Below are positions 3,674-46,621 of a DNA stretch of 64,000 bases, in pieces. Source of the DNA: an uncultured Erythrobacter sp. (GTDB taxonomy: Bacteria > Pseudomonadota > Alphaproteobacteria > Sphingomonadales > Sphingomonadaceae); contig CANKYI010000001.1 in NCBI GenBank assembly GCA_947488085.1, positions 2,489,928 to 2,553,927 of the forward strand. The letters run 5' to 3'. The position numbers and the translations under genes were made by a program. The notes under the pieces were generated by a model that did no database searches, was not told the origin of the DNA, and saw only the letters and a program-made list of their open reading frames with translations. Within the stretch, counting starts at the first letter, position 1. Every line of letters starts with the position of its first letter.

Positions 3674-3826
3674 AGTGCGGCCTTTCCCGATAGCAGCATA
3701 CCCAAATCACTGATGGCCTTATGACTATCTGTAATCTTCGATCTACGCAATCTATTGAAAAAGATGCCATAGCTAAATTCCAAGCGCCAATACAGATTCA
3801 ATATTTGTGTTAGATACTATCCTTTT

Positions 3827-3857
3827 GGATTACCTAGTGACAGCTATCTGCTATAAT
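3827..3857 (+). promoter_or_regulatory. Candidate promoter for the P450 gene
   Basis: A perfect -10 hexamer TATAAT lies at 3852-3857 in the AT-rich gap between the divergent DUF2156 and P450 genes, about 115 bases before the P450 ATG. Upstream -35 candidates (TTGGAT, TTACCT) are poor or badly spaced, so the site is tentative. Confidence 0.3.
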
Positions 3858-3971
3858 GTTCACGGTAATACGACGATTGAACTTGTGGCTGGAAGGGCTT
3901 GAGTATATTCAGAACAACTGTGTGGGATTTTGTTCCGACCCTTAAAAATTTATTCAGCCCCTTCGAAAGTG

Positions 3972-5291: not shown

Positions 5292-5427
5292 ACGCGCAAA
5301 TCTTCAGCATCCAGCCGCAGTTTGGGTATTGGTGGCGGCAGCCTCTTTTGGGTAAGTCGTGGTCATTCCGACTGGTGGGCAAGCTTTTACTTCGTTCAGA
5401 CGCAAGTCAGAAGAAAAGAGATGATCG

Positions 5428-30513: not shown

Positions 30514-30543
30514 GGTTCAAAGCCACATATTTGTGGCGCTCAA

Positions 30544-30589
30544 TGGCGCACCCGACAGGATTCGAACCTGTGACCTCTGCCTTCGGAGG
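30544..30589 (-). tRNA. 3' half of tRNA-Arg(CCG), attachment-site remnant
   Basis: Read on the reverse strand this is the anticodon loop CTCCGAA (anticodon CCG), the 3' anticodon stem GGCAG, variable loop, a perfect T arm (ACAGG TTCGAAT CCTGT), the acceptor 3' strand and an encoded CCA. The 5' half is missing: upstream bases do not pair with GGCAG and no D arm or acceptor 5' strand is present. This is what is left at one end when an element inserts into a tRNA gene, and the integrase gene starts about 180 bases away. It is therefore the likely att core. No second copy is visible in the window. Confidence 0.85.
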
Positions 30590-30738: not shown

Positions 30739-30766
30739 GGGACCGGCCGGAAAGGTGCGACTTCTC

Positions 30767-32107
30767 ATGCCAAAACTCACCAAGCGCGTCGTGGATGCGG
30801 CCGAGGTCCTAGAAAAAGACTACGTCATCTGGGACGACGAACTGCCCGGGTTCGGGCTACGTGTCTTCAAGTCAGGAAAGCGGAGTTACGTTCTTCAATA
30901 CCGGGCTGCTGGTCGATCGCGACGCTACAGTATCGGTCTTCATGGCGTCTGGACGCCGGACACGGCGCGGAAGGAAGCCAGGGTTCAACTAGGCAAGGTC
31001 GCTCAGGGCGAGAACCCAGCCGAAGAACGCTTGATCCAGCGCAATGCCATCACCGTCGAAGAACTCGCCGCTCAATACATCGACGCGATGAATGCTGGTC
31101 TTATTCTCGGCAAAGGCGGGCGACCCAAAAAGCCGGATACGATCTACACAGATATCGGTCGCATCAACGGCCACATCATCCCATTGATCGGTAAACGGCG
31201 TGTCCAAGATCTGACGAAGGCCAACGTCACCAAGATGATGAATGATGTCGTCTCGGGTAAAACCAAGGCGGTGCGCAAGACTGCCAACAAGCGTGGCAAA
31301 TCGATCCTACGAGGTGGGCGCGGCACAGCGAGCCGCTGTGTCGGACTCGTCGGCTCAATGCTCGCCTACGCGATCAGCATGGGGATTATCGAACACAACG
31401 TCGCCCATGGCATCAGAAAGCCCAAGGATCAGGTCCGAGATCGTCGGCTGAGCGAGGATGAGTACCGTCTTCTCGGCACAATACTACGCAAGGCTGGCGA
31501 TGACCCCGAACTCGCTCCGACCGTGGCGATCACCCGGTTGCTGGCTCTCACAGGCTGCCGTCGCGGAGAGATCATTTCTCTCAAATGGCGTGAGGTCGAT
31601 TTTGAGAACAGCTGCCTGCGTCTGACGGACTCAAAGGAAGGCGCTTCGACCCGACCGATCGGCCTGCCTGTTATCGAGCTTCTAGAGGAGCGCCGGAAGG
31701 TGGTCTCAGGCGAGCACGTGTTCCCTGGAATACGAGGATCAGACACCTTCGGCAGCTTTCCGAACCAGTGGCAGAAGATATTCGGTGGAGGCGTACTTCC
31801 TGACTTCACTGCCCACATTTTGAGGCATTGTTTCGCGAGTATCGCGAACGATCTGGGTTTCACGGAGAGCACCATTGCCGCACTCGTCGGGCATTCGACT
31901 GGATCGATTACGAGCAAATACATCCATTCGCTCGACAGCGTGTTGATCATGGCCGCCGATACGGTTTCCGGCTACATTCACGGACTACTCGCCGGTGTCG
32001 AGTTCAAGCGCACCGCATATGCCCTCGATCGAACCTCACGGCGTGAGGCTCTGTCACGGTTCTTGGCGCAGTCCAGTAAAACGGATGCAGTCGCTGAAAG
32101 ACAATAG
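30767..32107 (+). CDS. Tyrosine-type site-specific integrase
   Basis: A 446-residue recombinase of the P4/alphaproteobacterial island type: an N-terminal arm-binding domain starting PKLTKRVVDA, a core-binding helix domain, and a catalytic domain with the first Arg in LTGCRRGEI, the HILRH motif, the second His in VGHST and the nucleophile Tyr in SKYIH. All catalytic residues are present, so it should be active. ATG 30767 is preferred; a GTG lies twelve bases upstream. The gene faces into the element from the tRNA-Arg remnant it presumably recognises. Confidence 0.93.
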   Translation: MPKLTKRVVDAAEVLEKDYVIWDDELPGFGLRVFKSGKRSYVLQYRAAGRSRRYSIGLHGVWTPDTARKEARVQLGKVAQGENPAEERLIQRNAITVEELAAQYIDAMNAGLILGKGGRPKKPDTIYTDIGRINGHIIPLIGKRRVQDLTKANVTKMMNDVVSGKTKAVRKTANKRGKSILRGGRGTASRCVGLVGSMLAYAISMGIIEHNVAHGIRKPKDQVRDRRLSEDEYRLLGTILRKAGDDPELAPTVAITRLLALTGCRRGEIISLKWREVDFENSCLRLTDSKEGASTRPIGLPVIELLEERRKVVSGEHVFPGIRGSDTFGSFPNQWQKIFGGGVLPDFTAHILRHCFASIANDLGFTESTIAALVGHSTGSITSKYIHSLDSVLIMAADTVSGYIHGLLAGVEFKRTAYALDRTSRREALSRFLAQSSKTDAVAERQ

Positions 32108-32909: not shown

Positions 32910-34847
32910 TTAAGTCGCGTCTGGCCAGTCTCGAGGCACTAGCGCTTTCTGACCTCGCCATTCTTCGACTATTGCAGTCTCAAACCAATCTTCGCGAAGG
33001 TGTGCGTGATCGAGAACAATCAGCTGGAATGGAGACTCAATCTCGTTGCAAGCCTGCTGCATAAGCTCGAACAATGCGCGCACCGCGCGCCTATCGGCAT
33101 CAAGCTCAATCTCATCCAAACCTCCAGCCTCGCTGTCAGGCGGATAGTAGGCCTGCGTTGGTTGGTCGAATATCAGAAACGCAGGGACCGGCCGTTCCCG
33201 CCGGCGCAACCACCAATGCAATGCCAGGTGGCTCACGACGTGATAGCCAACCCAATTTTCACCGCTACCGATACGACTGAGAGGAATTGGGCCATCCTCG
33301 GTGTTCGCAACAACGGTCAACTTTGCAAGATCCAGACGCAGCGAACTTCCGCTATGCTCCAAATCCAGGTGTTGCGAGTAGTCGGTCATTTTTTCGCTAA
33401 TGAAGCTGAGAATAGTCTCAAGCTTTGACGCTGTCTCGTCGTTGTTCAAACGCTCTTTGACAGCGGCAATCAATTTGCGGACCTCATCAGTCTCCTCGGC
33501 GACGGCCGAGTCAGTGTCAGTCGGTTCAAAGACCTCAACGAAATCAGAAAGTCTTCCCAGATACCGGGCGCGAGCAACCAGCTGACTCTGTGCCTCACGC
33601 GCACTTTGATCTTCGGATACCGCGCGGTTCAATTCGCCTTGAGTTAAGCGCAACGCCTCAGTTGCGTTGGAGATTTGACCTTCTAGCTCTGTGATGTGGG
33701 TCTGAATGTGCGGGCTTTCGCGGTAAACGCCTTGAAGCTGCCTTTCGACGTTTTCAAGCGATGCGTTTAATGCAGACGCAGCAGGTATCGGATGCTCAAG
33801 ATCGTTTTCACAGAGTGGACAGTTCTGTATTGCACCATCCCCTGACTTGTACAAACCAACGCTCTTCAAGCGCGCTCGCTGTTCAGATGCTTCACGCGAG
33901 TATGCGGTTTGGTCAGAAAGAAACGAACGTGCCGCTCGCAAATCTTGGTTCAGCTCGCCGAGCCTGGCTTGAAGTGTCGATTGCTCGCCACGTAGCCTCT
34001 CAATCGTCTCTCCAAAATCGGGAACAACGCCAGCTGCGCTAACTTCTGTCTTGGCGACCTCAGCGAGATACGAAAACACACTATCATCAACTGGTTGGTA
34101 GTCTTGAGGGATCAATCCAGTCCGTTTTCCCTCATTGACAATCCGAGTAACCCTGTTTCTGTTGGTTTGCACCGCTTGCGACTGCTGGTTTTGGCGCCCC
34201 TCCAGTTCGCGCAATCTCCTCTGCAAGTCATCGAGCTCGCCCATGAGCAAGAAGTGTTTCTCGTCAACCGCTCCCAGAAAAAACGGCAATGTGTCCTTCA
34301 AAGCTTGTGGAAGGAACTGCTCATTCATTCTGTGGAAGAGCTGATCCTGACTCGCGATTGTGTTTTGTTTTTGGAAGCACAGCCACAGCGCATGGGCAAT
34401 GTTTGCTTCTAGCGGATCCCTCGAACCAGTGGATGGTCTATGCTCGTTCTCTACAATTCCTGCAAAGCGCGTAGCGAATGCCTTGAGACTGTTCTCCGTA
34501 GTATTTTTCTCGATCTCATCGAGCTCAGGAAATCTGTCAATCGTGCCCCGCTGCAAATACACTTTTGACCCCGTGCTTGCGCCTGGTCCAGGATTGTCGC
34601 GAGCGATCAAGACTTCATCCTCGCCCTTCGTAAGGTGTAAGGCAAACCAAGCGACCTTCTTGCGAATTGCTCCTTCTGCTACGTTAAAGCTCCCTCGACC
34701 AAGGCAATAATCGACGATGTCGATTATGGCAGATTTACCAGTTTTGGATTTGCCCGTGATGATGTTGAGACCATCCACGTCAAAATCGATCGTTCTGATT
34801 TCGCCCTCGTGACTGTACAGCACCATTGTCTTGATAGAAAAGCTCAC
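32910..34847 (-). CDS. DUF3732 SMC-like ATPase of an ABC-3C defence system
   Basis: A 645-residue SMC/Rad50-like ATPase: Walker A ITGKSKTGKSAI near the N-terminus, long coiled-coil arms (about 200-460) broken by a CPLC hook-like pair, then RIGSGENWVGYH (signature-like) and Walker B FLIFDQPTQAYYP. This is the DUF3732 architecture, the ATPase of three-component ABC systems predicted to sense invading nucleic acid. The start is taken as GTG 34847, which overlaps the stop of the middle-component gene as GTGA; a GTG at 34862 is also in frame. It is the last gene of the three-gene operon. Confidence 0.87.
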   Translation of the reverse strand: MSFSIKTMVLYSHEGEIRTIDFDVDGLNIITGKSKTGKSAIIDIVDYCLGRGSFNVAEGAIRKKVAWFALHLTKGEDEVLIARDNPGPGASTGSKVYLQRGTIDRFPELDEIEKNTTENSLKAFATRFAGIVENEHRPSTGSRDPLEANIAHALWLCFQKQNTIASQDQLFHRMNEQFLPQALKDTLPFFLGAVDEKHFLLMGELDDLQRRLRELEGRQNQQSQAVQTNRNRVTRIVNEGKRTGLIPQDYQPVDDSVFSYLAEVAKTEVSAAGVVPDFGETIERLRGEQSTLQARLGELNQDLRAARSFLSDQTAYSREASEQRARLKSVGLYKSGDGAIQNCPLCENDLEHPIPAASALNASLENVERQLQGVYRESPHIQTHITELEGQISNATEALRLTQGELNRAVSEDQSAREAQSQLVARARYLGRLSDFVEVFEPTDTDSAVAEETDEVRKLIAAVKERLNNDETASKLETILSFISEKMTDYSQHLDLEHSGSSLRLDLAKLTVVANTEDGPIPLSRIGSGENWVGYHVVSHLALHWWLRRRERPVPAFLIFDQPTQAYYPPDSEAGGLDEIELDADRRAVRALFELMQQACNEIESPFQLIVLDHAHLREDWFETAIVEEWRGQKALVPRDWPDAT

Positions 34848-35353
34848 GGTCGCACCCCCCACGCAGCGAGAATTGAGGACTCTGATCCTGACTTGGCAAA
34901 CCAGCGCCCCATAAACTTTGTTCGATCAATGATATCCCGCGTTTCCGCGGTCGTATCGTCAACAAAGCTCTTCGGAAAATGTGCCTTCTTAGGTCCAAGA
35001 CACAAATGGTGACCATCAGCGACCTGCATAACTTCATGGGCCATTGCGAACATCGTTGCTTCTCGAAAGTAGGGCATCAGTCCAGTCAAGCGATCAGGAA
35101 AACCCACTAACAGATCTTCATTTCCCTGCAGCCATTCATAGAGCGAACTGACGATCGAATACGGCAGCCTCCTCCGTGATCCACCATGGAGCGAGATCGC
35201 AAGCGCAACCGCTACCAGTGTTACTGGCGCCGACCCGCTCTGCTTGCTGCCATAGGCTTTCACAAATTCATAAGCCAACGAACCCAAGAACGCAGGGTTG
35301 AAAAGACGCGACTCTTCAGGCGCGCGCCTTTCCCATGGTGCGAGCCTAGGCAT
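34844..35353 (-). CDS. ABC-3C system middle component
   Basis: A 169-residue helical protein beginning with PWERRAPEESRLFNPAFLGSL, the sentence typical of middle-component proteins that sit between effector and ATPase genes in ABC three-component systems. Its ends overlap the flanking genes by eight and four bases, so all three are made together. The family role is presumed to be a connector or adaptor between the sensor ATPase and the effector; no catalytic residues are expected. Confidence 0.85.
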   Translation of the reverse strand: MPRLAPWERRAPEESRLFNPAFLGSLAYEFVKAYGSKQSGSAPVTLVAVALAISLHGGSRRRLPYSIVSSLYEWLQGNEDLLVGFPDRLTGLMPYFREATMFAMAHEVMQVADGHHLCLGPKKAHFPKSFVDDTTAETRDIIDRTKFMGRWFAKSGSESSILAAWGVRP

Positions 35354-36524
35354 CCTCAGTCACCAAGATTTCTTCAAAGTCGGGATGCCAACCGATCTCC
35401 ATGCGATCTGAAAGACCGTGAAATGATCCAGCCGTTATCCACGTCTCAACCACGTTGCGGAACCCCACCTGTTGCTGCGAAGCCCAAAAGTAGATCGAGC
35501 GTCCAAGTTTCCGCTTCTCGTCCTCTGATCCACTGTCATCCTCGGCACAGCTTTCGTCGAACTTGCGCCCCCAGCGATCTTGCAGTGCCGTGTCATACCG
35601 ATCGCTTTCGCCATCAAGAAGGAGGCTTTCACGGGCCCACTTGGATCGCTGCGCACTCGATCGGTAAAAGTCCCTGACACCTCGACGCACAACCCTATCT
35701 GACAGGCCGACAACCCGCATTTGCCGAACGAAGACTGCATCTTCGTCATCAGGTGTATAGTCTTTTGCATCAAGTAGTTCGGGATCATCGACTGGTAGGC
35801 CATCTTCCTTGAACATATTACCAATTTCGTTGGCTTTAATTGTAATCGATTGAATTGGAATCAGGTCGGAGTTTTCCTGGATGAGGTGTTTGCCGACAAC
35901 ACTGAACCACCAGCCTTCAAGATATTGCGCGATAGTCGAAACATGTTGCGGCGACAGCAACACCAGTTCCCCTTCGATATCGTCGTTCATATCAATAAGA
36001 TTGGGATGTCGATCACACACCTCAATCGATCGCAAAAAGAGATCAACTTCGGTATCGGTCAGCTTCAAAAACTGCTCGCGTCCTAGTTTCGTAGTTTGGT
36101 TTTCTGAACTTTCAGCCGCCGCGCGTAACAGGTCTCTCGCGGTCTTACGGTCGTCTGCGCTATGCCCTGGTCGCAGTTTAGCCATAGCGCTACCATCAAC
36201 AGCTTCAGCTGTCGTTATCAACATACGACGAACGTTACCCGATGTAAGCGACCCTTGCTGGAATGACTCAATCCAAACTCTTATTGTCTTCCAAAGATCT
36301 ACGCTCTTATCAGCAAGGGATTTCGGCGTAACGTGATGCTTTGCTTGAATAAGACACGTTCCATAATCGTCATCTTCGAAAGCTACGTCATCGAACTTTT
36401 CAATGGAAATGAGAGCATTCGGATGTTTTTTGAGAAGCTGCAGGCCACGCAACAAAGCCAAACGGCATTGAAACACGTAGCCGGCCATCGAGGCCGACGC
36501 ATCAAAACTATCCTTATGACTCAT
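35346..36524 (-). CDS. ABC-3C effector protein with nuclease-like N-terminal domain
   Basis: A 392-residue protein, first in the operon. The N-terminal domain contains GYVFQCRLALLRGL, then ISIEKFDDVAFE and LIQAKHH (about residues 40-65). An acidic motif followed by QxK is the pattern of PD-(D/E)xK nucleases of the DUF4297/Cap4 type. The C-terminal half (about 270-390) resembles the shared ABC-3C C-terminal domain, which is thought to couple effectors to the complex. The predicted action is cleavage of DNA when the ATPase is triggered. ATG 36524 follows an AAGGAT ribosome site. The nuclease call is from motif reading only. Confidence 0.75.
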   Translation of the reverse strand: MSHKDSFDASASMAGYVFQCRLALLRGLQLLKKHPNALISIEKFDDVAFEDDDYGTCLIQAKHHVTPKSLADKSVDLWKTIRVWIESFQQGSLTSGNVRRMLITTAEAVDGSAMAKLRPGHSADDRKTARDLLRAAAESSENQTTKLGREQFLKLTDTEVDLFLRSIEVCDRHPNLIDMNDDIEGELVLLSPQHVSTIAQYLEGWWFSVVGKHLIQENSDLIPIQSITIKANEIGNMFKEDGLPVDDPELLDAKDYTPDDEDAVFVRQMRVVGLSDRVVRRGVRDFYRSSAQRSKWARESLLLDGESDRYDTALQDRWGRKFDESCAEDDSGSEDEKRKLGRSIYFWASQQQVGFRNVVETWITAGSFHGLSDRMEIGWHPDFEEILVTEDA

Positions 36525-36645
36525 CAAAAATTATCCTTCGTTTCCTCAATACCGCGAAGTCATCGTGCCTCAGTCATTTAATCTCGACTCAGAAGACACC
36601 TATACAGGTCTTTCCTATTAGTAGAATTTTCTGCTCTCCCAAATT

Positions 36646-37992
36646 TTAGCTACCCTGAAGGTTGTGAACTCCCTGGTCCAATATGTTATCGAGAAAGTCT
36701 TCCCGTGATGCAATTACTTCAGTCTGCGTTGCATCGACGAGCGCCTTGACAACCTTCCGCGCCAATGAACGAGCTATCACTCTTTCTTCCGATGAGATGG
36801 CTGCCATGTTGCGCCCATGAAGGAACGCGCTGCGCAGATCGAACACTCGCTCGAACTGGCCTGCATATTTTCCGTCACCAAGCAGCCCGACGATCCGACT
36901 TCGCATTCTATCGGTCGCCCGCATGCCCTTGTGCCGATCAGGCTGGATCCGAAATCTCTTCTGGTAGTCAGCGCGCAAGCCAAGCCCGGCCTCAATCGTC
37001 GTGATGTGAGCAAGAAACTCGTCAACGCCAGCCGCCAAAAATGCACGAACTAGAAAATGCTCTATCGGCGTTTCGAAGAGAACTGACCGCTTAGCAGCCT
37101 CGACTATCGCCGAGAGGTTATCGTTCCAGACCGCCAGTTCGGCCTCAGCACAATCCTCCAAAGGCATTTCGACAGGACGTTCCTCCTCGTAAGTTCCGCC
37201 ATATCCATCGTCGTAGATCCGAGGCTCCCAGCTCAGCGTGCCCGGTAATGGCGGCGCGCTAGGGCGGACAAAGATGTCCGTGTTTACAGTATAAACCCAA
37301 GGAATGCGAAAACTACGCCAATCAACCTCGAGCATCGTCGACCAGCTTTCCCAAGGTGCAAGCAATAAGAAAAACAGCGCGTCCTCGACAGCGCTCGGGA
37401 CACCAACCTCATGCGGTTCGATCCGACCCAAATCCTGGCTCAGGTCGGCAAACAGAAATGGTATGGACCGCGCTTCGGGCTCTTGCTCTAGCGCAATAGT
37501 CTCCTGAACGATCAGCCAATGAAACTGTGAGAAGTGCTCGGCATCAAAATCGTGCTGCGGATAGAGCCGCTTTAGTCGGCAGGCATCAACGATCTCAAGC
37601 AACTCTGTTGCATCAAGGCGGCACACCCTGGCAGAGCCAAACGACAGGTGCGGCAGTTCGGCCGCGAGATCCAACGGTGCCAGATGAATAAGTGTGGCAT
37701 GTGTTGCCCGCATTGCGGCGTCGAGCTTCGTCGCTGCTTGCTCCACCGGCAGACCGAGATGAACCGTTTTCTTCTGCAGGTAACAAGGAAGGCCCAAAGC
37801 TCTTAGAGCCGTGGCAAGCGCAATGTTGGGGCCCTTCCTGCCCGCACTCGGGTAGTCGACACGGCAGGCTTCGCGCAATTGCACGAATGCGGGATGCGCG
37901 AGGATGTTGTCGGGCCCTGGCGGATGAACGCGCCACAACTCCGACAAAGCAGCCATCATTTCCTCACTTGGTTGAGACCCAAGCTCACCCAT
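36646..37992 (-). CDS. HEPN-domain protein (predicted RNase), last gene of the AbiE-TIR-HEPN operon
   Basis: A 448-residue protein. The C-terminal helical region carries FDLRSAFLHGRNM, i.e. Arg387-x4-His392, the catalytic RxxxxH signature of HEPN ribonucleases, in the context typical of Apea-like HEPN proteins. The N-terminal 330 residues are not recognised and may be a sensor. Its ATG shares one base with the TIR stop (TGATG), so translation is coupled. In defence systems HEPN proteins cut tRNA or mRNA and stop growth; here the same operon also encodes a TIR NADase-like protein and an AbiE toxin pair. Confidence 0.8.
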   Translation of the reverse strand: MGELGSQPSEEMMAALSELWRVHPPGPDNILAHPAFVQLREACRVDYPSAGRKGPNIALATALRALGLPCYLQKKTVHLGLPVEQAATKLDAAMRATHATLIHLAPLDLAAELPHLSFGSARVCRLDATELLEIVDACRLKRLYPQHDFDAEHFSQFHWLIVQETIALEQEPEARSIPFLFADLSQDLGRIEPHEVGVPSAVEDALFFLLLAPWESWSTMLEVDWRSFRIPWVYTVNTDIFVRPSAPPLPGTLSWEPRIYDDGYGGTYEEERPVEMPLEDCAEAELAVWNDNLSAIVEAAKRSVLFETPIEHFLVRAFLAAGVDEFLAHITTIEAGLGLRADYQKRFRIQPDRHKGMRATDRMRSRIVGLLGDGKYAGQFERVFDLRSAFLHGRNMAAISSEERVIARSLARKVVKALVDATQTEVIASREDFLDNILDQGVHNLQGS

Positions 37993-39104
37993 CAGGCAAT
38001 CCGAAGCCTACGCAGAAGTTTGCCCAGCACCGTTTCATAGTCTTCCTGCTTGGAGAAGTCGGCATAGAGTTTCCCCTTAAGAAACTCTGGTAACTCACAT
38101 TCTTCGTAGAGCAGAGGTAGAACAACGACTTCACCGCTAGAGATTTCTCGGTTCATTGCAGTGTCGAGTTCCTTTTTCACCCACGGCGCGCCAATCGACT
38201 TATTCGAGAGAACGACGGCGATGTAGCGACTGAGCTTCATGCCTTCCTCGATCTTCTCGATCAGAGAGTCGCCGATATCGATTTCCGCCTCATCCAGCCA
38301 CACATTCTCAACCCCGTGAGCGAGGAGATCTTTTCGTAGCTGGCGCACGAAAGGCTTATCGACGCCAGTATGACTCAGAAAAATGCCGTGATATTTCTCA
38401 TGTCGCGGGTCGGCTTTCTCTAACGCCAAGCTGTCGCGCACCAATTGGTTCGAAGCCTCTTCTGAAGTTGGAGGTGTGAGAAGCCAACCAGTGGTTGTTC
38501 CAAGCGTCACTTCACCGCCGAGGCTGTAACCCTCTGGAGTCGCCGCAGTCGACATATAACCCTCGTCCGGATCCGACAGGCACAGTGTCCAACCACCGGT
38601 TCTGGAGAGCGTCTCAAAGTAGCGTGCAAACGGACTGTCAGCATCAATTGAACCTATCCTTCGCCCCTTTTTAACAAGAAGCTCGGAACGCTTCAGCAGC
38701 CGTGCGACCTTTGGTGCCACATATCCGAGATGGGTTTCACGATAGCCGAAAAAATTAACCCGCTTCGGTTCTGACAAGCACCAGACTACGGTTGCGCCAT
38801 CTCCTATTGCAGCTTCCATCTCCTTACGCCGGTCCTCGCTGTCGAAAGCGGAGTCCAAATCATATCGATCGTTCTGCCCCTTCAGTTTGCCCAACTCGTA
38901 AAGCTCATTCGAATACTCACCGGCCTGACCAAACAAGAAATGCGTATAGCTTGCTGGGTTTATTATGATCGTATCATATTCATAAAGGGGATAGGCAGAT
39001 CGATCATGATCCACCTTTGGTTGGCACAAACCGAGATTGTCGATCTCGACCCCGTCGATGGCTCCGCCGGTGTAGGTAATCCCGACCGTCAGCACATTTC
39101 TCAT
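37992..39104 (-). CDS. TIR-domain protein (predicted NADase or signalling enzyme)
   Basis: A 370-residue protein. Residues about 240-365 form a TIR domain: GIFLSHTGVDKPFV, WLDEAEIDIGDSLIEKIEEG, YIAVVLSNKS and APWVKKEL, in which Glu312 aligns with the catalytic Glu of NAD-cleaving TIR domains such as SARM1. The N-terminal 230 residues are unrecognised; they could sense infection. The start codon overlaps the AbiEii stop by four bases (ATGA) and the stop overlaps the HEPN start by one. NAD depletion leading to abortive infection is the likely outcome. Confidence 0.87.
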   Translation of the reverse strand: MRNVLTVGITYTGGAIDGVEIDNLGLCQPKVDHDRSAYPLYEYDTIIINPASYTHFLFGQAGEYSNELYELGKLKGQNDRYDLDSAFDSEDRRKEMEAAIGDGATVVWCLSEPKRVNFFGYRETHLGYVAPKVARLLKRSELLVKKGRRIGSIDADSPFARYFETLSRTGGWTLCLSDPDEGYMSTAATPEGYSLGGEVTLGTTTGWLLTPPTSEEASNQLVRDSLALEKADPRHEKYHGIFLSHTGVDKPFVRQLRKDLLAHGVENVWLDEAEIDIGDSLIEKIEEGMKLSRYIAVVLSNKSIGAPWVKKELDTAMNREISSGEVVVLPLLYEECELPEFLKGKLYADFSKQEDYETVLGKLLRRLRIA

Positions 39105-39973
39105 TTCTTGTCCCCTTCAGCCGCAAGCGCCGCATGCGGCATCAGAAATTTACTCAGATCTTCGACAACTTGATCTAGTGAGCCGGGATCAACGGAAACA
39201 TCCCGCGCAAAGGCTGCCCACTGCCGCTGCTTGGCTTCATCTTGGCTAAAAGCAGGAGTCAGTCCGTCAGGGATATCCCTTGGGATCGCTGTTTCGCGCC
39301 GTTCGAACGTCGCCGCGATTGCGCGACCGAGTTGCGTCTCGTCAAATTCGAAAGACTGGCTCAGTAGCCAGATATCGTAGTAGTCTTTGATCCGCGTGTT
39401 TGCATGGCCAAGGGCAACCATCGCCTGGAACTTCTCCGCGACCACTGTCTCGCGCGCATAGCCGCGCAGTGTTGCAGCTGGCATGTCGAGAAGTCCTGGC
39501 AGGGCAAGAATCTGTGGCTCGGGCTCCATCGCATCGCCAAACCCGATATCGACACTGATCGACACCCGGGCACCGCCGACATCAGCGGTGGTCTTGATCC
39601 GTAGCCCGCCATATTCGGTGTCCTCCCGGATACGTCCAATGCGCGCGCCCTTGGCGTCAAAGTGGACGCCGTCCGGTGCCTCTCTTGCGAAGATGTCCTT
39701 GAAAACGCCGAGCACTGCATCCGGGTCAGGATCTCCGTGGCCCAGAAGATCGACATCGCGGGTGCCGCGAAATGGTTCATCGAACCACGTCATCAACAAC
39801 ACCGCGCCCTTGAGAACGAAGCGCTCTGCATGCGCAGACTCGGCCAAGCGATACAGCAAGCGCTCATTGGCATATCGTGTCAGGACGAGTTGATAGTTTT
39901 GTCCACTGTCCTTGCTGATCGTGAGCAGCCGGGCGCGTACCGAAGCGCCAAAATTCTTGATCACTTTAGCCAT
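39101..39973 (-). CDS. AbiEii-type nucleotidyltransferase toxin
   Basis: A 290-residue nucleotidyltransferase of the AbiEii/AbiGii family. The polymerase-beta-like site reads LKGAVLLMTWFDEPFRGTRDVDL (acidic pair in RDVDL, about residue 72-76), and the C-terminal family motif RIKDYYDIW is present around 195. AbiEii proteins inhibit growth, in studied relatives by adding nucleotides to tRNA. It overlaps AbiEi by eight bases and the TIR gene by four. Both key motifs are intact. Confidence 0.9.
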   Translation of the reverse strand: MAKVIKNFGASVRARLLTISKDSGQNYQLVLTRYANERLLYRLAESAHAERFVLKGAVLLMTWFDEPFRGTRDVDLLGHGDPDPDAVLGVFKDIFAREAPDGVHFDAKGARIGRIREDTEYGGLRIKTTADVGGARVSISVDIGFGDAMEPEPQILALPGLLDMPAATLRGYARETVVAEKFQAMVALGHANTRIKDYYDIWLLSQSFEFDETQLGRAIAATFERRETAIPRDIPDGLTPAFSQDEAKQRQWAAFARDVSVDPGSLDQVVEDLSKFLMPHAALAAEGDKK

Positions 39974-40580
39974 TCGCCGTCAGCGCTTCGAGATAAGGAC
40001 GGACAATTGTCGAGACGCCGCCCGTTGCAGCCGACCGTGCAATCTCCGCTGGGGTGACCTTGCGCTGCCGCAGTGCTTCTTGAAGTCCTTCCAGGGCGAC
40101 CGACTGCCCAACCGAGCGCCTATGCCGAAAGCAGTCGGCAATTGTCTTGGCGACACCGAACACCTTCACCGGGACGCCTTCAATTGATGTCGTTTCTACA
40201 CCTTCAGCCAGCAGAGCATCCGTAAACCGAACAACGCGCAGCGCTGGTTCATCCTGCGGGGACCAGTCGTTCTTCCCGATCGCAAGCCAGACCGACCGTG
40301 GGAGCTGGTCAGTCAGTTCGTGAAACGCGAGCGCTGATGTGAGACACACCACGCCTTTAGGGACACGCTTCGCCGCTTCGGCAAGACTGTGATTGGCATC
40401 GAGCGGTGCGTCCGGCAGTTGATAGAGGCCCCGCGCCAGACGAATGACCTCGCCATCGTCCCGCATCCGGCCGATGGTCGCAGCCGTGATGCCGGCTGTC
40501 TTGAATTCAGACAGCCGGACGATGCCCCGGTCCCGGAGCATTTGTTTCGCTTGATCACGCTGCGTTTTACCCTCTGGCAT
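39966..40580 (-). CDS. AbiEi-type antitoxin and autorepressor
   Basis: A 204-residue protein with an N-terminal winged-helix domain (TQRDQAKQML...LARGLYQLPD) and the AbiEi C-terminal region including VCLTSALAFHELTDQL and KVFGVAKTIADCFRHR. In type IV AbiE systems the antitoxin does not bind the toxin but represses the operon and neutralises its effect. ATG 40580 is chosen over an in-frame TTG at 40589. An inverted repeat lies immediately upstream. It heads a four-gene operon in which every junction overlaps. Confidence 0.9.
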   Translation of the reverse strand: MPEGKTQRDQAKQMLRDRGIVRLSEFKTAGITAATIGRMRDDGEVIRLARGLYQLPDAPLDANHSLAEAAKRVPKGVVCLTSALAFHELTDQLPRSVWLAIGKNDWSPQDEPALRVVRFTDALLAEGVETTSIEGVPVKVFGVAKTIADCFRHRRSVGQSVALEGLQEALRQRKVTPAEIARSAATGGVSTIVRPYLEALTANG

Positions 40581-40629
40581 TGATACCAAACCACCAAGTT
40601 GTAGACCTATGTTATGAGGTTTAGTATCA
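40581..40629 (-). promoter_or_regulatory. Inverted repeat upstream of abiEi, probable autoregulatory operator
   Basis: TGATACCAAACC (40581-40592) and GGTTTAGTATCA (40618-40629) are inverted copies matching at 11 of 12 bases, separated by 25 bases. AbiEi proteins are known to bind paired inverted repeats in front of their own operon, so this placement directly before the start codon fits autorepression. The second arm could also influence the divergent gene at 40697. Confidence 0.65.
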
Positions 40630-40696
40630 TCGCTACAACTTCCGGTAAAGTCAGTTCGGTGGTTGAAAGCGCAAATTCACAACGGAGGTCAGAACA

Positions 40697-41188
40697 TTGG
40701 CTGGAAAATGGAGCATGCCGGGCGTTCCCCATAAAGGTTGGACATGCACGTCAGTCGACGATCTCGGCGCTCCAAATCAGCTCTGCGAAATGTGCGAGAC
40801 CCAGGACATCCGGTATGTCCACCATATGGAACATCCCGATTATCCGGAAGGCCTCGGGGTCGGATGTGTCTGCGCAGAGAACATGGAAAACGACTATGAA
40901 GGACCGCGTCGCCGAGAACGCGCCCTTCGAAACGCCGCCCAACGCAAACAGCGCTGGCTCAGCCGGAAATGGAAGGTCTCGACACAGGGAAATGCCTATC
41001 TGAATACGGACGGTCTCAACATCACCGTATTTCAAAGGACGCCGACTCTGTGGGGCGCCCGGATCGAAGACCGCGCCACGGGCAGGTCAGTCTCTTCGAA
41101 GCGACCGCACAAGACCGAAGATGCAGCTAAACTGGCCGCATTTGACGCGATGATCTTCTTGAAAGAAGAACGCGGCTGGGGAGCCTAG
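40697..41188 (+). CDS. Hypothetical protein with Cys/His cluster
   Basis: A 163-residue protein starting at a TTG (40697) preceded by a perfect GGAGG. The N-terminal half has a metal-binding look: CEMCETQDIRYVHHMEHP followed by GVGCVC, which could hold zinc in a treble-clef-like fold. A basic segment (EGPRRRERALRNAAQRKQRW) follows, then a beta-rich C-terminal part. It is not recognised, and the strong ribosome site supports a real gene. It is transcribed away from the AbiE operon and shares the intervening region. Confidence 0.65.
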   Translation: MAGKWSMPGVPHKGWTCTSVDDLGAPNQLCEMCETQDIRYVHHMEHPDYPEGLGVGCVCAENMENDYEGPRRRERALRNAAQRKQRWLSRKWKVSTQGNAYLNTDGLNITVFQRTPTLWGARIEDRATGRSVSSKRPHKTEDAAKLAAFDAMIFLKEERGWGA

Positions 41189-41558: not shown

Positions 41559-42974
41559 CTAAGCCTGTCTTACAATGACTGGGTTCGTCGTACACATCAC
41601 GAGCTTTCGCGAACCGCGAGTCATGGCAACATAAAGATCGCGTGCATTCAGCAGATCTGTATCAATCACTACCGCCACATCAGCTTCCAATCCTTTGAGG
41701 AGCAAAGTGCTGCCCACAGCCCGGCGCGGCAACGCCCGGCCTTTGACGCGGGACTGCTCCCGCGCGCGAACCGCCATTTCATGAAAGTCGTCGACATCCA
41801 CACATCCATTGAATGCCTGAATGGCAGAGCGCACCAAGGCGGGACGAAGAGGGAAAACCCCGGCTTGCCGATTAATCTCAACCAACATGGTCACGGCGGC
41901 TTCTGGGCTTGGCGATCGTGAAAACGCTAGCGCCGCACTCTCAGCATCTGTTGGCGGCGTCCGTTCTCTCCCCGCCAGCAATACGCCGAGCCGTTGCTTC
42001 ATTTGTGCCGCGCCGACGCCAGTCATTGTGCTACCAGCAAAGTCTATCAGCTCCGCCGCCGCAGTCGGCGCGCGCATATCAAACGCCTCGGCAAACCGGA
42101 TAAAATCGGTCAGATCTGCATTTTCAACAACAACCGCGCCATGCGCTCGTCCTGCGATATCCCGGTGCCGTGGTGGTCGTTTGGCGTCACAGACGATAAG
42201 GACACTCCCACCATCTACTGGCGCTCGCGTATTGGCAGCTTGCGTTTGCTTCTGGATGTCGTCGTCACCCGTTACCGATATCAGCTCCACCTCAGGTGGC
42301 GCTTGGCGCAGGTCTATGGGTTGACCCGATTGAAGCGCGGCCCTCACAGCTAAGAGCCATCGTCCAAAGTCTTCGGTCCCGGCATTGCGCCAACGCCATG
42401 GAATATCCAGTTCTCCCGCAGCCGGAAAGCGGGCCTGAACATCGGCCTGCCAATCGACGAGAACGTTGGTACCCCATCCGAATATGGCCTGCATGGGATC
42501 GCCGAGAATACAGGTCGGCAAGACTTCCGCAATCTTCGATACCATCGTGTGCTGTTCGATAATGCAATCCTGATACTCATCAACAAACAGACGGGCATAG
42601 GTCGCCTGGAGTACGTCTCTGAGATGATCGCCAGCAAGAATATTGAGCGTCCCCTCGCGGATCGCGGGATAGTCATCTCTTGGACTGTTGAGGTCCAACG
42701 TCCCGTCCGCATGGCCACTGCGCTGCGGGAAGGTTCCAATGAGACGCATTCCCCATCCGTCGATCGTCGTAATCCGAAACGCACTTTGCGGGACACCCAT
42801 GTGCGTCAGTCGGGCACGGAGCGCCGCAACACCGGCATTTGTATGCGTCAGTATCAAGATCGGTTTGGGATCGACATGGCGTTGCAATGCGGACGCTATC
42901 AGATGCGTTTTCCCGCATCCAGCAGGCGCGGAAACGCTGCCGCAAGTGATATTTAGCAGATCTATCTCAGCCAT
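41559..42974 (-). CDS. gajB: UvrD-like superfamily 1 helicase, GajB-type Gabija component
   Basis: A 471-residue SF1 helicase with Walker A APAGCGKT (about 16-23), motif II FVDEYQD, motif III LGDPMQAIFGW, and motif VI NARDLYVAMTRG near the C-terminus. It overlaps the OLD nuclease gene by eight bases. An OLD nuclease of about 577 residues followed by a compact UvrD helicase of about 480 is the size and order of the Gabija anti-phage system. The 10-residue longer frame to 43004 is less likely. The family assignment is firm, and the Gabija assignment rests on the pair. Confidence 0.85.
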   Translation of the reverse strand: MAEIDLLNITCGSVSAPAGCGKTHLIASALQRHVDPKPILILTHTNAGVAALRARLTHMGVPQSAFRITTIDGWGMRLIGTFPQRSGHADGTLDLNSPRDDYPAIREGTLNILAGDHLRDVLQATYARLFVDEYQDCIIEQHTMVSKIAEVLPTCILGDPMQAIFGWGTNVLVDWQADVQARFPAAGELDIPWRWRNAGTEDFGRWLLAVRAALQSGQPIDLRQAPPEVELISVTGDDDIQKQTQAANTRAPVDGGSVLIVCDAKRPPRHRDIAGRAHGAVVVENADLTDFIRFAEAFDMRAPTAAAELIDFAGSTMTGVGAAQMKQRLGVLLAGRERTPPTDAESAALAFSRSPSPEAAVTMLVEINRQAGVFPLRPALVRSAIQAFNGCVDVDDFHEMAVRAREQSRVKGRALPRRAVGSTLLLKGLEADVAVVIDTDLLNARDLYVAMTRGSRKLVMCTTNPVIVRQA

Positions 42975-44700
42975 GAGGCGTTTGCGCCCAAGCGAGAAGC
43001 GCATTCACGCGGTTCTGAAAATCCTCACTGACATTTCCGAAGTTCGGTGCCAGAATATTGCGAGCCACGTATTCCATCCTGCCAACGGTTTTAAACCAAG
43101 GGTTTTTCTTGGTGGTGCATGCTGTGACAATCATATCTCGCTGAGCAGGTGAGATTAAATGTTGAGGCGAATCAAGAATTGCACGAAGGTTGTCGATCGT
43201 TTCCTGGTTGGCTGACGCTGATTGAACATGCGCTGCAATCATCTCCGGGCCATGTTCTGCAATGGCGTAATCCAAGAGAACCAAGAGTGTTGCGTCTCCT
43301 GTGTTACCGACAATTGCTGCCTCTAACGATTGCCCGGCATGCCAAGTAAATGTAGCCCCCGCTGTTTGATGGAAAGCAGCTTCAATTTGTGCGTCGGGTA
43401 TTAGATCAGCATCGCGAAATACCGCAGCGCGATACCCCAACTTCACAAACTCGGTCGCCTTTTCGTACAATCGGTCTGGATGACCGCCACCGCCATCAAC
43501 AAGGGCGACACCACAGGCAAAGATCGAGGGGCCGCCATGGGCAGTGCAGTGTTGTTCAAAGCCCCTTACAAACCCGACTTCAGACGCTCCCTCACAAACC
43601 AGAACTGATGGGGCCAGGAAAGCTTCGGGTGCGCTGCGCAGCGTCCCTTGTGCAGTATCAGGAACCAAACGCGCGACGTGCTTTCCTTCTGACTGACGTA
43701 AAACACGAAGCTGTTTTGCGGTAAGTTCCCTCAAAACGATTGGTGAGTGCGTCGTTGCGAAGACTTGCTGCGGCGGCACCTGCTCCTTCGCCCCTAACGA
43801 CCCCAATAACCGGATAATCCGATGTGGTTCCAGACCGTTTTCAACCTCGTCGACCAGCAGGATAGACGACACCGCTGCCACTTCGCGTTGGAGGCCCGCA
43901 ATCAAGAGGCGCGTCGAACCAAGGCCAAGGCCGCGCAAGGGCACACCGTGTTCATCGTGCAGTGCGATGGATCCGCCCGTGACAGAAACAGAATGTGTGT
44001 CAAGAAGCGCCTGTGCTTTTGCGCCGATCGGGATACCGAGTTCATCGGCTGCCTTTTTGACCGACGCCAACGCATCTCCCAGTTGTGCATCTGCGTCATT
44101 GCCAAAGGCTTTACGAGCCTCTCTTGCAGCTTGCGAAAGTGCCAAAGACGCATCAGGCTTCTCTTCGCTCAAACGTCCAAGCACCGACCCGCGCCGCCAT
44201 GCGAGATTATGGTCAGACGTTGCGCCTAGTCGGGTTGGAGCAAGATTGAGCCGATCCTTCCAGTTAAGATTGCGTTCGCTGCCCTTTGCGTCTGCCCGAT
44301 CCGATCTTAGTCTCCAGCGCGGTTCAAGGTCGCCAGCAATCTCCAAATTCAACGACAGGACGGTTTCCAATCCGTGCCCTGGCTCGTCTTCGATCGTCCC
44401 CAATACATCTTCGTACCCGCGCAGATAGTCGCCATAGGCCTCATAATTTCTCAGGCTATCCGACAAGTCGCCTAAAGTCAGTGTGACCGAAATCGGCGTC
44501 TCGACGTCAATCATGTGAAAATCGGCGTCCGTAATCGGAATGGATCGACGGGCTCCAAGACAAAGGTCGATCGCATCCAGAACGGTACTTTTACCGGAGT
44601 CGCCAGAGCCGATCAGGCAATTGATCCCCGGCGTGGGATACCATTCCAACGATTTGATCGACCGGAAGTGTGAAATCTCGACTTTGCGAATGACCGCCAT
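42967..44700 (-). CDS. gajA: OLD-family ATPase with TOPRIM nuclease domain, GajA-type Gabija component
   Basis: A 577-residue protein. The N-terminal ABC-like ATPase has Walker A GSGDSGKST (31-39) and Walker B ILLVDEVENGLEP; the C-terminal TOPRIM domain has VLVCEGASEVGF (metal Glu) and AVFRDAD (acidic pair). OLD-family GajA nicks specific DNA when nucleotide pools fall and partners with the helicase encoded by the next, overlapping gene. ATG 44700 is preceded by AAGGAGG. It lies 55 bases after the GHKL ATPase gene, so it is likely in one operon with it. Confidence 0.87.
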   Translation of the reverse strand: MAVIRKVEISHFRSIKSLEWYPTPGINCLIGSGDSGKSTVLDAIDLCLGARRSIPITDADFHMIDVETPISVTLTLGDLSDSLRNYEAYGDYLRGYEDVLGTIEDEPGHGLETVLSLNLEIAGDLEPRWRLRSDRADAKGSERNLNWKDRLNLAPTRLGATSDHNLAWRRGSVLGRLSEEKPDASLALSQAAREARKAFGNDADAQLGDALASVKKAADELGIPIGAKAQALLDTHSVSVTGGSIALHDEHGVPLRGLGLGSTRLLIAGLQREVAAVSSILLVDEVENGLEPHRIIRLLGSLGAKEQVPPQQVFATTHSPIVLRELTAKQLRVLRQSEGKHVARLVPDTAQGTLRSAPEAFLAPSVLVCEGASEVGFVRGFEQHCTAHGGPSIFACGVALVDGGGGHPDRLYEKATEFVKLGYRAAVFRDADLIPDAQIEAAFHQTAGATFTWHAGQSLEAAIVGNTGDATLLVLLDYAIAEHGPEMIAAHVQSASANQETIDNLRAILDSPQHLISPAQRDMIVTACTTKKNPWFKTVGRMEYVARNILAPNFGNVSEDFQNRVNALLAWAQTPHG

Positions 44701-44755
44701 GGTGCCCTCCTTAACGGCCTCCGCCAGTTCCTAATTCTTCTCGCCGCCTTTTGAC

Positions 44756-46621
44756 CTAGGCTGCATTCTCTTCTGGCACGTCCGCCGTTTTGATCAGTTC
44801 CTTGGCATATCGCTTCGCTTGCGAGATGCTCTGCTTGTAATCATCCGCAGCCAGCGACAGCGACTCAGGAGATGTGGCGCGATCCAGATCATCGCTCGAC
44901 CAGTCGTCTGAGAGGCGTTTGCTGATTGCATAGCAAGTCGCCTTGCCAACACGGAAAGCCATGAACTTTCGAGACGCTTTGAGAATAGCGGAACGCACCA
45001 CCTCCGGTTCGCCCGACATGCGCAACTCCGCATCAAGTTCGATGGCCATACGCTCGACGACGGAGTAAAGACCGTTCACGAACAGCGTTTGCGCGTCTTT
45101 GTAAAAGCGCCCAGCACGGCCTTTCAGATTTTTCTCGGCTATCTCCTCAGGGTCGGTGAGGATTTTGATCTCCGGCACGCGCTCCAAGGACTGAGCGGAA
45201 CGTGAGAGCTTTGCACCCTCGGGCGCCTTACGGACTTTCTTGTGCTTGGCGCGTTGGCTTTTGTTCGGGTCGCCCTTGGTACCACTCTCATCGGTGTCCT
45301 CACGCGTCTCAGCGAAATCCGTGTCGAGATCGACTGGGTCGGACGTTTCGCTGCCTTCGGCGGTATCTTCCGTCCGGGATGCAGACTGGCGGCGCGACGG
45401 ACTCAGGGTAGCCGTGGGGACGCGGAACTCGTCGAGGAGTTTTTGAAGGTCGGTTTGGAGATCATCCAAATTGTCATCAGAGGACGGTGACTCCGAGCGA
45501 ATAACATCCCTGACCCATTCCGGCATGAGTTCGCGGACATATGCGTCGAAATCCTCGGCAATCATTGAGGACCGGTCATCTGGCCACGTCAATCCGTCAC
45601 GATACTGATTTGGCATGGCGATCGTGTCGGCAAGTTCGATTTCAATTGTGAGGACCTTCGAGCCGAACGGGATCCCGAAGTTTGGGGCTGCGGCCGACCA
45701 AGCCTTCTTCGATTTGATGTCATAGCGCTCCCCCTTGTGCACCAGCGCGCAAAATGTCGTGGAACTCGTCGCAGGATTGGCGAGCGCGCTGAGGGAATGG
45801 CTGTGCCGCTCATGCTTGGGATCGTGAATATAATGTACCGTGATCTCGCCACCCGGTGCTTCGACTCGTTCATGATCGGGCAATTCATCGACTACATCTT
45901 CAAGCGTCTTGAGCCGGCGCGTACGTCCCGTCTCACCCTTGCCGCCGCCTTTGGTCATGGCGACATCGACTCGAACTTCGACTCCCTCGCCAAAACGGGC
46001 AAAACGTCGAAAGATCGCCGACGCGATGAAGCTACGTTCTAGGCTTTTTCCTTTACCCAAGGGTTCAGCAACGGTGTCATGATCTTCGCTTTGCCCGACA
46101 AGGAGGACTTCGGTCCAATCGAAGCTGGTGTCCTGCCCCGCTTCACGGGCCACATCAGTGACGTCGTAGACCGTATCGAAGCTGCCATCGGGCAATTCGA
46201 CGGGAAAGCGAACATAGGTGCCCTCGTCGGCGTCAAAGCCGATCGTCACCTCATTGACGACACCATTCTTGCACGACCGATAGCGTATACCCTCGCGCGA
46301 CATGGTGAGACCTGAGACTTTCGCCCCGATCCCGAAGTTTCCGTCGAGCGCCATCTCTTTATTGACTGATGACGACAGGTCCGTCGCTTGCTTCAACTCC
46401 TCATCATCCATGCCCACGCCCGTGTTCCAGAAGGTCAGCTTGCGCACGCCCTCTATCGTCGTGGGGTAGATTTCGATTCGGCGGTTTTCTGATTGCGCCT
46501 GAACAGCGCTTTCGTCGGCGTTCTTGAAGAACTCGCGCACAAGCGTGCTCACGGGCGCCTGTTCGATCAGCCGATTTATGAGAAAGCGTTTGTCACGGAT
46601 GTTGAGTGTTTCGGCCTTCAT
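44756..46621 (-). CDS. GHKL (HSP90/MutL-fold) ATPase, probable defence component
   Basis: A 621-residue protein. The N-terminal half shows the Bergerat ATP site: N box REFFKNADESA (about 29-39), G1 FWNTGVGMDDEE (about 64-75), and G2 NFGIGAKVSG (about 94-103). Residues about 385-460 are acidic, Ser/Asp-rich and probably unstructured, followed by a helical C-terminal domain of about 140 residues. GHKL proteins occur in several anti-phage systems but this architecture is not one I can name. It follows the small gene by 14 bases with AGGAGG, and precedes the Gabija-like pair. Confidence 0.82.
   Translation of the reverse strand: MKAETLNIRDKRFLINRLIEQAPVSTLVREFFKNADESAVQAQSENRRIEIYPTTIEGVRKLTFWNTGVGMDDEELKQATDLSSSVNKEMALDGNFGIGAKVSGLTMSREGIRYRSCKNGVVNEVTIGFDADEGTYVRFPVELPDGSFDTVYDVTDVAREAGQDTSFDWTEVLLVGQSEDHDTVAEPLGKGKSLERSFIASAIFRRFARFGEGVEVRVDVAMTKGGGKGETGRTRRLKTLEDVVDELPDHERVEAPGGEITVHYIHDPKHERHSHSLSALANPATSSTTFCALVHKGERYDIKSKKAWSAAAPNFGIPFGSKVLTIEIELADTIAMPNQYRDGLTWPDDRSSMIAEDFDAYVRELMPEWVRDVIRSESPSSDDNLDDLQTDLQKLLDEFRVPTATLSPSRRQSASRTEDTAEGSETSDPVDLDTDFAETREDTDESGTKGDPNKSQRAKHKKVRKAPEGAKLSRSAQSLERVPEIKILTDPEEIAEKNLKGRAGRFYKDAQTLFVNGLYSVVERMAIELDAELRMSGEPEVVRSAILKASRKFMAFRVGKATCYAISKRLSDDWSSDDLDRATSPESLSLAADDYKQSISQAKRYAKELIKTADVPEENAA

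Follow-up and report, generated by a model that had tools for sequence, protein, structure and literature searches.

A TIR-HEPN gene pair behind an AbiE toxin-antitoxin operon in an uncultured Erythrobacter: a candidate modular defence cassette

Introduction

A 64,000-nucleotide stretch of the genome of an uncultured Erythrobacter sp. (assembly GCA_947488085.1, contig CANKYI010000001.1, positions 2,489,928 to 2,553,927; hereafter the window) carries four minus-strand genes, each of which overlaps the next. They encode a type IV toxin-antitoxin (TA) pair of the AbiE kind (AbiEi and AbiEii), a protein with a TIR domain, and a HEPN-like protein. Do these genes form one conserved system, or are they separable parts brought together in this genome? 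The reading that we favour, with a probability of roughly 0.55, is that of a mobile, modular defence cassette in which an autoregulated AbiE pair has been spliced onto a TIR-HEPN core. The TIR-HEPN junction recurs in other loci and the four-gene set does not: among the loci seen, intact AbiEi, AbiEii, TIR and HEPN genes stand together in the window only.

Anatomy of the four-gene cluster

The coordinates of the genes (Table 1) confirm the overlaps described in the initial annotation, of 8 bases between abiEi and abiEii, 4 bases between abiEii and the TIR gene, and 1 base between the TIR and HEPN genes. Such overlaps would couple the translation of the cluster genes.

The third protein matches the TIR_2 model, and its Glu312, the residue that is catalytic in TIR domains, is invariant in all 18 rows of an alignment that leaves out L030 (loci are given here by L numbers), whose TIR gene carries an in-frame stop. 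The TIR protein with a catalytic glutamate thus stands as originally described. The best solved relative of the domain is an AbTIR-type chain (E = 2.9e-17), with other TIR domains also near, and the likeness to TIR NADases such as AbTIR (7uwg, 8g83) extends by sequence to W308-x3-E312. The domain is predicted to consume nicotinamide adenine dinucleotide (NAD+), and probably does. Unlike the AbTIR-type enzymes, the window protein has its own N-terminal domain of about 236 residues. This separate, conserved domain (residues 1-236) had been overlooked; it has no match in Pfam or PADLOC and no relative among PDB sequences or in viral contigs, and it is probably a sensor.

Recurrence of the TIR-HEPN junction

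A scan of genome contigs with the TIR N-terminal domain returned 25 loci. Eight of them (L019-L024, L031 and L033) appear to be copies of a single element, which leaves 18 distinct loci. A HEPN gene, whole or partial, follows the TIR gene in 20 of the 25 loci and in 14 of the 18 distinct ones: it is full length in 16, cut by the contig end in L023, and damaged in L013, L025 and L037. L013, from Roseovarius, is a close copy of the cluster, AbiEi-AbiEii included, with the HEPN gene interrupted near codon 51 (from position 6241). The HEPN gene of L025 is cut down to about residues 8-54 (8125-8265) and that of L037, a metagenome assembly, lies in a broken frame (8113-9428); in all three loci the neighbouring TIR gene stays open. 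L033 ends inside the TIR gene. The junction spans two classes, as L035, from another class, encodes a TIR protein and a HEPN-like protein with 61% and 42% identity to those of the window. Across 11 loci, the distances between TIR proteins rise with those between HEPNs (Mantel r = 0.72, p = 0.0003).

The pair is also found on plasmids: 12 records contain a relative of the TIR protein that reaches 80% coverage, and match coordinates place HEPN behind it in 11. All 11 are from Agrobacterium; the record that was read, NC_002377.1 ("plasmid Ti", which we take to be octopine-type), carries TIR-HEPN without adjacent AbiE. On a Pseudomonas veronii plasmid (L002, 7454-10454) the TIR gene is followed by open reading frames (ORFs), some of them TIR-like by eye, and then by transposases. 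The TIR-HEPN pair, sought with and without AbiE, therefore does co-occur elsewhere, the observation on which the initial proposal of a TIR-HEPN core had been made to depend.

One explanation would dispense with any functional link: separate defence genes could have been shuffled in an island hot spot, and the overlaps would then reflect ordinary tight gene packing. TIR and HEPN genes are indeed also found apart, and Gabija, ABC-three-component (ABC-3C), SIR2-HerA and PD-T7-like genes stand alongside in various loci. A junction shared by 14 of the 18 distinct loci across two classes, with distances that covary, argues against this explanation, which we consider unlikely though by no means negligible.

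HEPN relatives were found in 30 plasmid records, 19 of which have no TIR gene, and in 2 of 289 whole genomes sampled, the window's own included. Ten of the 19 TIR-less neighbourhoods were read. HEPN is preceded by REN, the protein described below, in L003 and L004, and by Gabija in L007; a small HEPN-like protein lies near or directly before it in L005 and L006. This exchange of the 5' partner, with HEPN remaining 3' (L003-L006), recalls the MNT-HEPN dyads, in which the antitoxin is presumed to be encoded by the 5' gene (PMC3710099). The 5' gene, whether TIR, REN or small HEPN, would then restrain a HEPN RNase in a TA-like dyad. However, the other five neighbourhoods (L008-L012) have no overlapping upstream partner of HEPN in their incomplete annotation, and the TIR gene is retained in loci that have lost HEPN or carry a broken copy, which suggests that it is kept for its own sake. 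We regard such a dyad as decidedly unlikely. In these neighbourhoods, RES-family (NAD+ phosphorylase) genes are annotated near HEPN in L003 (4721-5281), L010 (3108-3737) and L012 (3110-3739), on plasmids of Shinella, Klebsiella and Pantoea, and represent another predicted NAD-consuming neighbour.

The HEPN-like protein

The fourth protein has no match in Pfam, PADLOC or NCBIfam, and none of 12 members of its family has a Pfam match even at E = 10. Because no family model matches, the label "HEPN" rests on the R-S-x3-H-G motif at residues 387-393. R387, S388, H392 and G393 do not vary among the 12 rows made up of the window protein and 11 relatives (28-62% identity), and the motif is likewise invariant in 12 of 12 rows of TIR-linked HEPNs; the spacing of R387 and H392 agrees with the R-x4-6-H rule for HEPN RNases (PMC3710099). 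When the C-terminal part was set against nine PF18739 (HEPN_Apea) domains, hhalign gave a weak match (probability 3%, P = 0.014, versus P = 0.44 for the N-terminal control) that places R387..H392 on the R-N-x3-H of HEPN_Apea. Two of the 11 PF18739 places (L068 and L069) were left out of this set, and one that was used (L067) is below the cut-off. The protein shares with the abortive-infection HEPN RNases (PMC3710099; HEPN_Apea, PF18739) an R-x4-H near the C terminus and a polar residue after the arginine. It differs from known HEPN RNases in an N-terminal part of about 290 residues of unassigned kind and in the absence of a HEPN model match, and it is encoded behind TIR, whereas the known HEPN (PMC3710099) is encoded behind MNT. 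The motif named in the initial annotation is thus borne out by the alignments, and the family assignment is without model support; we describe the protein as HEPN-like and as a predicted, not proven, RNase.

The idea of a phage-borne family was considered and rejected, since neither viral contigs (pattern scan) nor phage records hold a relative. The dN/dS ratio of HEPN is 0.09-0.29 in five of six pairs, the sixth not being computable, and that of TIR is 0.02-0.09 (nine pairs). As the TIR protein is more constrained than HEPN and is mostly kept where HEPN is lost, it is likely to be the central component, a NAD-consuming sensor-effector.

Replacement of the usual upstream partner

The usual upstream partner of the TIR gene is REN, a protein of about 200 amino acids located by tblastn in 17 of the 25 loci, with only its tail in L027, and not in the window. 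REN may be called nuclease-like from a G-D-V...E-C-K pattern read by eye; it has no Pfam, PADLOC or PHROG match. Upstream of REN in L019, two divergent genes (3339-5711, minus strand) are recognised by the PD-T7-1 defence model (1.5e-83 and 1.8e-6). The REN-TIR-HEPN loci, which are unnamed and mostly from Alphaproteobacteria, have the TIR and HEPN families and the overlaps in common with the window. They carry REN upstream and often DUF6088-AbiEii downstream, whereas the window carries AbiEi-AbiEii upstream.

Trees were built from 20 TIR rows and 22 HEPN rows, leaving out element copies and contig-cut or broken rows. The TIR proteins of the window and L013 group with the REN-type TIRs (95/96), and the window HEPN groups with the REN-type HEPNs (89/93). 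Because the window sequences fall among REN-type sequences, AbiE most likely took the place of REN in the window's lineage. Over the 24 bases that precede the ATG of the TIR gene, the window agrees with L026 at 17 of 24 positions and with L019 at 16 of 24; the same comparison with 443 other starts bearing a Shine-Dalgarno-like motif, the 444th being the site itself, gave fewer than 15 in every case. An in-frame fusion of the AbiEii tail to the last codons of REN was considered and rejected, because the AbiEii tail of L057 also fits (18/27, versus 21/27 for L026), and for the same reason the crossover point is not fixed.

The AbiE pair as a separable module

The window pair has the order of an AbiE type IV TA system, with an AbiEi-family regulator directly upstream of AbiEii, and inverted repeats precede abiEi, as they do in the abiE promoter (PMC7319586). 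It resembles the systems described from Streptococcus agalactiae and others (PMC3985639) in gene order, in gene overlap and in these repeats; the published operon is bicistronic, whereas that of the window has two further overlapping genes behind it. With respect to the nucleotidyltransferase motifs of AbiEii, hG[G/S]x15DhD (PMC3985639), DVD is present in the window protein, and motif I (KGA) has Ala as its second residue, as in most aligned members of the subfamily. Inverted repeat B is retained with 2 mismatches in L013, L053 and L054, where repeat A is degraded. Since repeat B abuts the abiEi start and AbiEi of S. agalactiae represses its own operon (PMC3985639), AbiEi would be expected to autoregulate the unit in the window. 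A divergent 163-residue ORF (40697-41188, plus strand) adjoins this operator and has no PADLOC or PHROG match.

AbiE of the window subfamily is a separable module that is present elsewhere without TIR and with a similar operator region. Its AbiEii has relatives in 644 plasmid records, of which 205 reach 80% coverage; among 240 genomes of the class, 10 have one at E = 1e-20, counting the genome of the window itself. None of the 16 fetched stretches with window-type AbiEii (L041-L050 and L053-L058) holds a TIR or HEPN relative. Those with 86% identity, from Pseudosulfitobacter, stand alone, and the 70 bases before their abiEi are identical to those of the window at 61 and 60 positions, with repeat B present (2 mismatches) and repeat A degraded. 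A separable AbiE regulator or guard, as first suggested, fits these observations.

AbiE-type genes as neighbours of the TIR-HEPN module

AbiEi-AbiEii lies upstream of TIR in two of the 25 loci, namely L013 and L036. The latter is metagenomic, has no HEPN, and carries a divergent third kind of AbiEi-AbiEii (identity to the window of 51, 42 and 55% for AbiEi, AbiEii and TIR). In 13 of the 25 loci, a DUF6088-AbiEii pair, AbiE-type but of another subfamily, stands just downstream of HEPN. Both genes are present in 12 of the 13, L015 being cut by the contig end; HEPN is damaged in two of them (L025 and L037), and the gap between HEPN and DUF6088 is 67-81 bases in six measured loci. The upstream and downstream AbiE are of different subfamilies, with no tblastn match between them at 1e-6.

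These arrangements bear on the idea of an integrated four-gene system in which AbiEi, AbiEii, TIR and HEPN act jointly and AbiE is essential. It would account for the overlap at every junction, for the AbiEi-AbiEii-TIR order of L036, and for the frequency of AbiE-type genes behind HEPN. Against it stand the confinement of the intact set to the window (HEPN being interrupted in L013 and absent from L036), the Ti plasmid pair that lacks adjacent AbiE, the different subfamilies on the two sides of the module, and the 16 AbiE stretches that have neither TIR nor HEPN. An integrated system is thus very improbable. A conserved four-gene system is rejected on the distribution among TIR loci, and the fixed set with three cell-killing activities that the initial annotation envisaged is not upheld.

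AbiE-type genes lie beside the module in 11 of 20 distinct TIR loci, against a baseline of 35 AbiEii matches in 115 genomes. As a control, none of 27 OLD-family places (25 genomes) lies within 7 kb of AbiEii, the nearest being at about 13 kb; some of these places are near contig ends, so that misses are possible, and three are below the family cut-off. This contrast also speaks against unlinked shuffling. It is not decisive, since related loci are not independent: AbiE presence requires at least five changes on the TIR tree, but counted as three kinds of arrangement, the comparison is 3 of 20 distinct loci versus 0 of 27 (one-sided Fisher p = 0.07). The association of AbiE with the TIR module is therefore suggestive. 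In the genomes or records of the AbiE-less loci, no AbiEii was placed within 7 kb of TIR, with contig numbers taken as record numbers; a candidate AbiEii in L014 was dismissed on Pfam evidence. In strain B6 (L032) the distance between AbiEii and TIR is about 10.5 kb, and in L007, which has HEPN and no TIR, a weak AbiEii-like match (4.2e-8) is found 4.4 kb from HEPN. L013, L023, L027 and L033 end too soon for a downstream AbiE to be judged.

Genomic island and neighbouring genes

The whole defence cluster appears to sit on an island of about 55 kb delimited by an integrase and tRNA-Arg(CCG). A 3' fragment of this tRNA gene lies beside a tyrosine integrase (Table 1), and an intact copy lies beyond the right end of the window, about 55 kb away, at about 85464 on the window scale (L071, 1492-1568). 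Over 46-47 bases the fragment has an identical counterpart in six of 12 same-genus relatives, and the two of these counterparts that were checked are tRNA-Arg(CCG); in the other six relatives the identity is 92-98%. The intact copy in the same genome differs from the fragment (44/50), as would be the case had integration displaced the original 3' end. No exact repeat of at least 16 bases is common to the two tRNA copies, which is why we infer the boundary rather than read it directly.

Table 1. Features of the cluster, its operator region and the predicted island, in window coordinates.
Feature	Position	Strand	Remarks
AbiEi antitoxin/repressor, 204 aa	39966..40580	-	ATG start; TTG at 40589 in frame; Pfam AbiEi_4 8.4e-10; PADLOC AbiEi 3.1e-84
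AbiEii nucleotidyltransferase toxin, 290 aa	39101..39973	-	Pfam AbiEii 5.7e-46; PADLOC 6.5e-114
TIR protein, 370 aa	37992..39104	-	Pfam TIR_2 7.2e-28, residues 241-363; N-terminal domain 1-236 without model; Glu312
HEPN-like protein, 448 aa	36646..37992	-	R387-S-x3-H392-G; no family model
Inverted repeat B, right arm, 12 bp, 1 mismatch	40581..40592		Abuts abiEi ATG
Inverted repeat B, left arm	40618..40629
Inverted repeat A, one arm, 9 bp, perfect in window	40596..40604		2-4 mismatches in relatives
Inverted repeat A, other arm	40633..40641
Tyrosine integrase of predicted island	30755..32107	+	Phage_integrase 4.2e-18; Arm-DNA-bind_3 2.5e-15
47-base 3' fragment of tRNA-Arg(CCG), predicted island boundary	30543..30589	-	Beside integrase

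Directly downstream of the cluster lies an ABC-3C operon (Lamassu-like LmuB/LmuC/LmuA, 32910-36527). A distant ABC-3C operon (LmuB 28%, LmuA 23%) stands beside TIR-HEPN on a Ti plasmid (L001), and an ABC-3C system is annotated near HEPN in L007. The window also holds a Gabija-type GajA-GajB pair (41559-46621), preceded on the minus strand by a gene for a 621-residue protein that matches GHKL ATPase weakly and matches nothing in PADLOC or PHROG.

Discussion

In the mechanism that we propose for this modular cassette, a translationally coupled TIR-HEPN pair would form the core of an anti-phage defence, the N-terminal domain of the TIR protein sensing and its TIR domain consuming NAD+. The HEPN-like predicted RNase would be a second, dispensable means of stopping the infected cell. 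AbiEi-AbiEii, with its own operator, occupies the position that REN has in most relatives. Because this operator precedes all four genes and the abiEii stop codon overlaps the TIR start, AbiEi would be expected to repress the whole four-gene transcript, which a drop in AbiEi would release. AbiE has been reported to stabilise an integrative element (PMC11062541), and by addiction it would likewise stabilise the predicted island against loss.

Several observations weigh against this reading. HEPN is absent from L026, L030, L034 and L036 (4 of the 18 distinct loci); with the damaged genes counted, 7 of 18 lack an intact HEPN, whereas TIR is mostly retained. TIR and HEPN are therefore not obligate partners; the initially proposed TIR-HEPN core with an AbiE guard holds as to co-occurrence and fails as to strict pairing. 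The P. veronii plasmid has TIR without HEPN, and HEPN relatives are also found in other company (REN, a small HEPN or a preceding Gabija) or with no partner that overlaps them. A single clade of TIR-linked HEPNs is rejected (p-AU 0.028), the best tree splitting them, and the pairing may have more than one origin or have been lost repeatedly. Family models give the HEPN assignment no support, and the window HEPN has diverged to an unusual degree (68% to the crown versus 81% within it, compared with 86% and 89% for TIR), which could mean relaxed constraint. Inverted repeat A is lost in L013 (4 of 9 mismatched), and the repeat script, at its stringency, found no inverted repeat in L013, L053 or L054. 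The four-gene form of the window may be a recent and short-lived arrangement. Finally, AbiE recurs beside the module and may thus be more than an accidental neighbour.

Thoeris, in which a ThsA effector stands beside the TIR protein ThsB, offers a further comparison. The operon proteins have no SIR2/SLOG or ThsA match, and the ThsB_TIR model scores under its cut-off on the window TIR (17.5 versus 21.2 bits). A Thoeris-like logic that ends in RNA cleavage can nonetheless be imagined for (REN-)TIR-HEPN: the N-terminal domain would sense, TIR would make a NAD+-derived nucleotide signal, and HEPN would act as receptor and effector RNase through its long N-terminal part. AbiE-type pairs would have been recruited as a fail-safe and, in the window lineage, would have taken over the promoter. 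We hold such a signalling defence to be quite unlikely. No title or abstract found in the open-licence PMC literature, outside which most subscription papers lie, names a TIR-HEPN operon. The excerpts of PMC3710099 describe TIR fused to DUF4145 HEPN and to AbiJ N-terminal domains, and a TIR-HEPN operon is not among the arrangements given there.

Under the modular reading, the coupling of TIR to a HEPN-like gene, found even on an Agrobacterium Ti plasmid, would join two different shutdown enzymes in one overlap. The cluster is a concrete example of a TA pair standing before a defence module, which would thereby come under an autorepressor. The recurring AbiE-type neighbours make it testable whether TA pairs guard defence cassettes.

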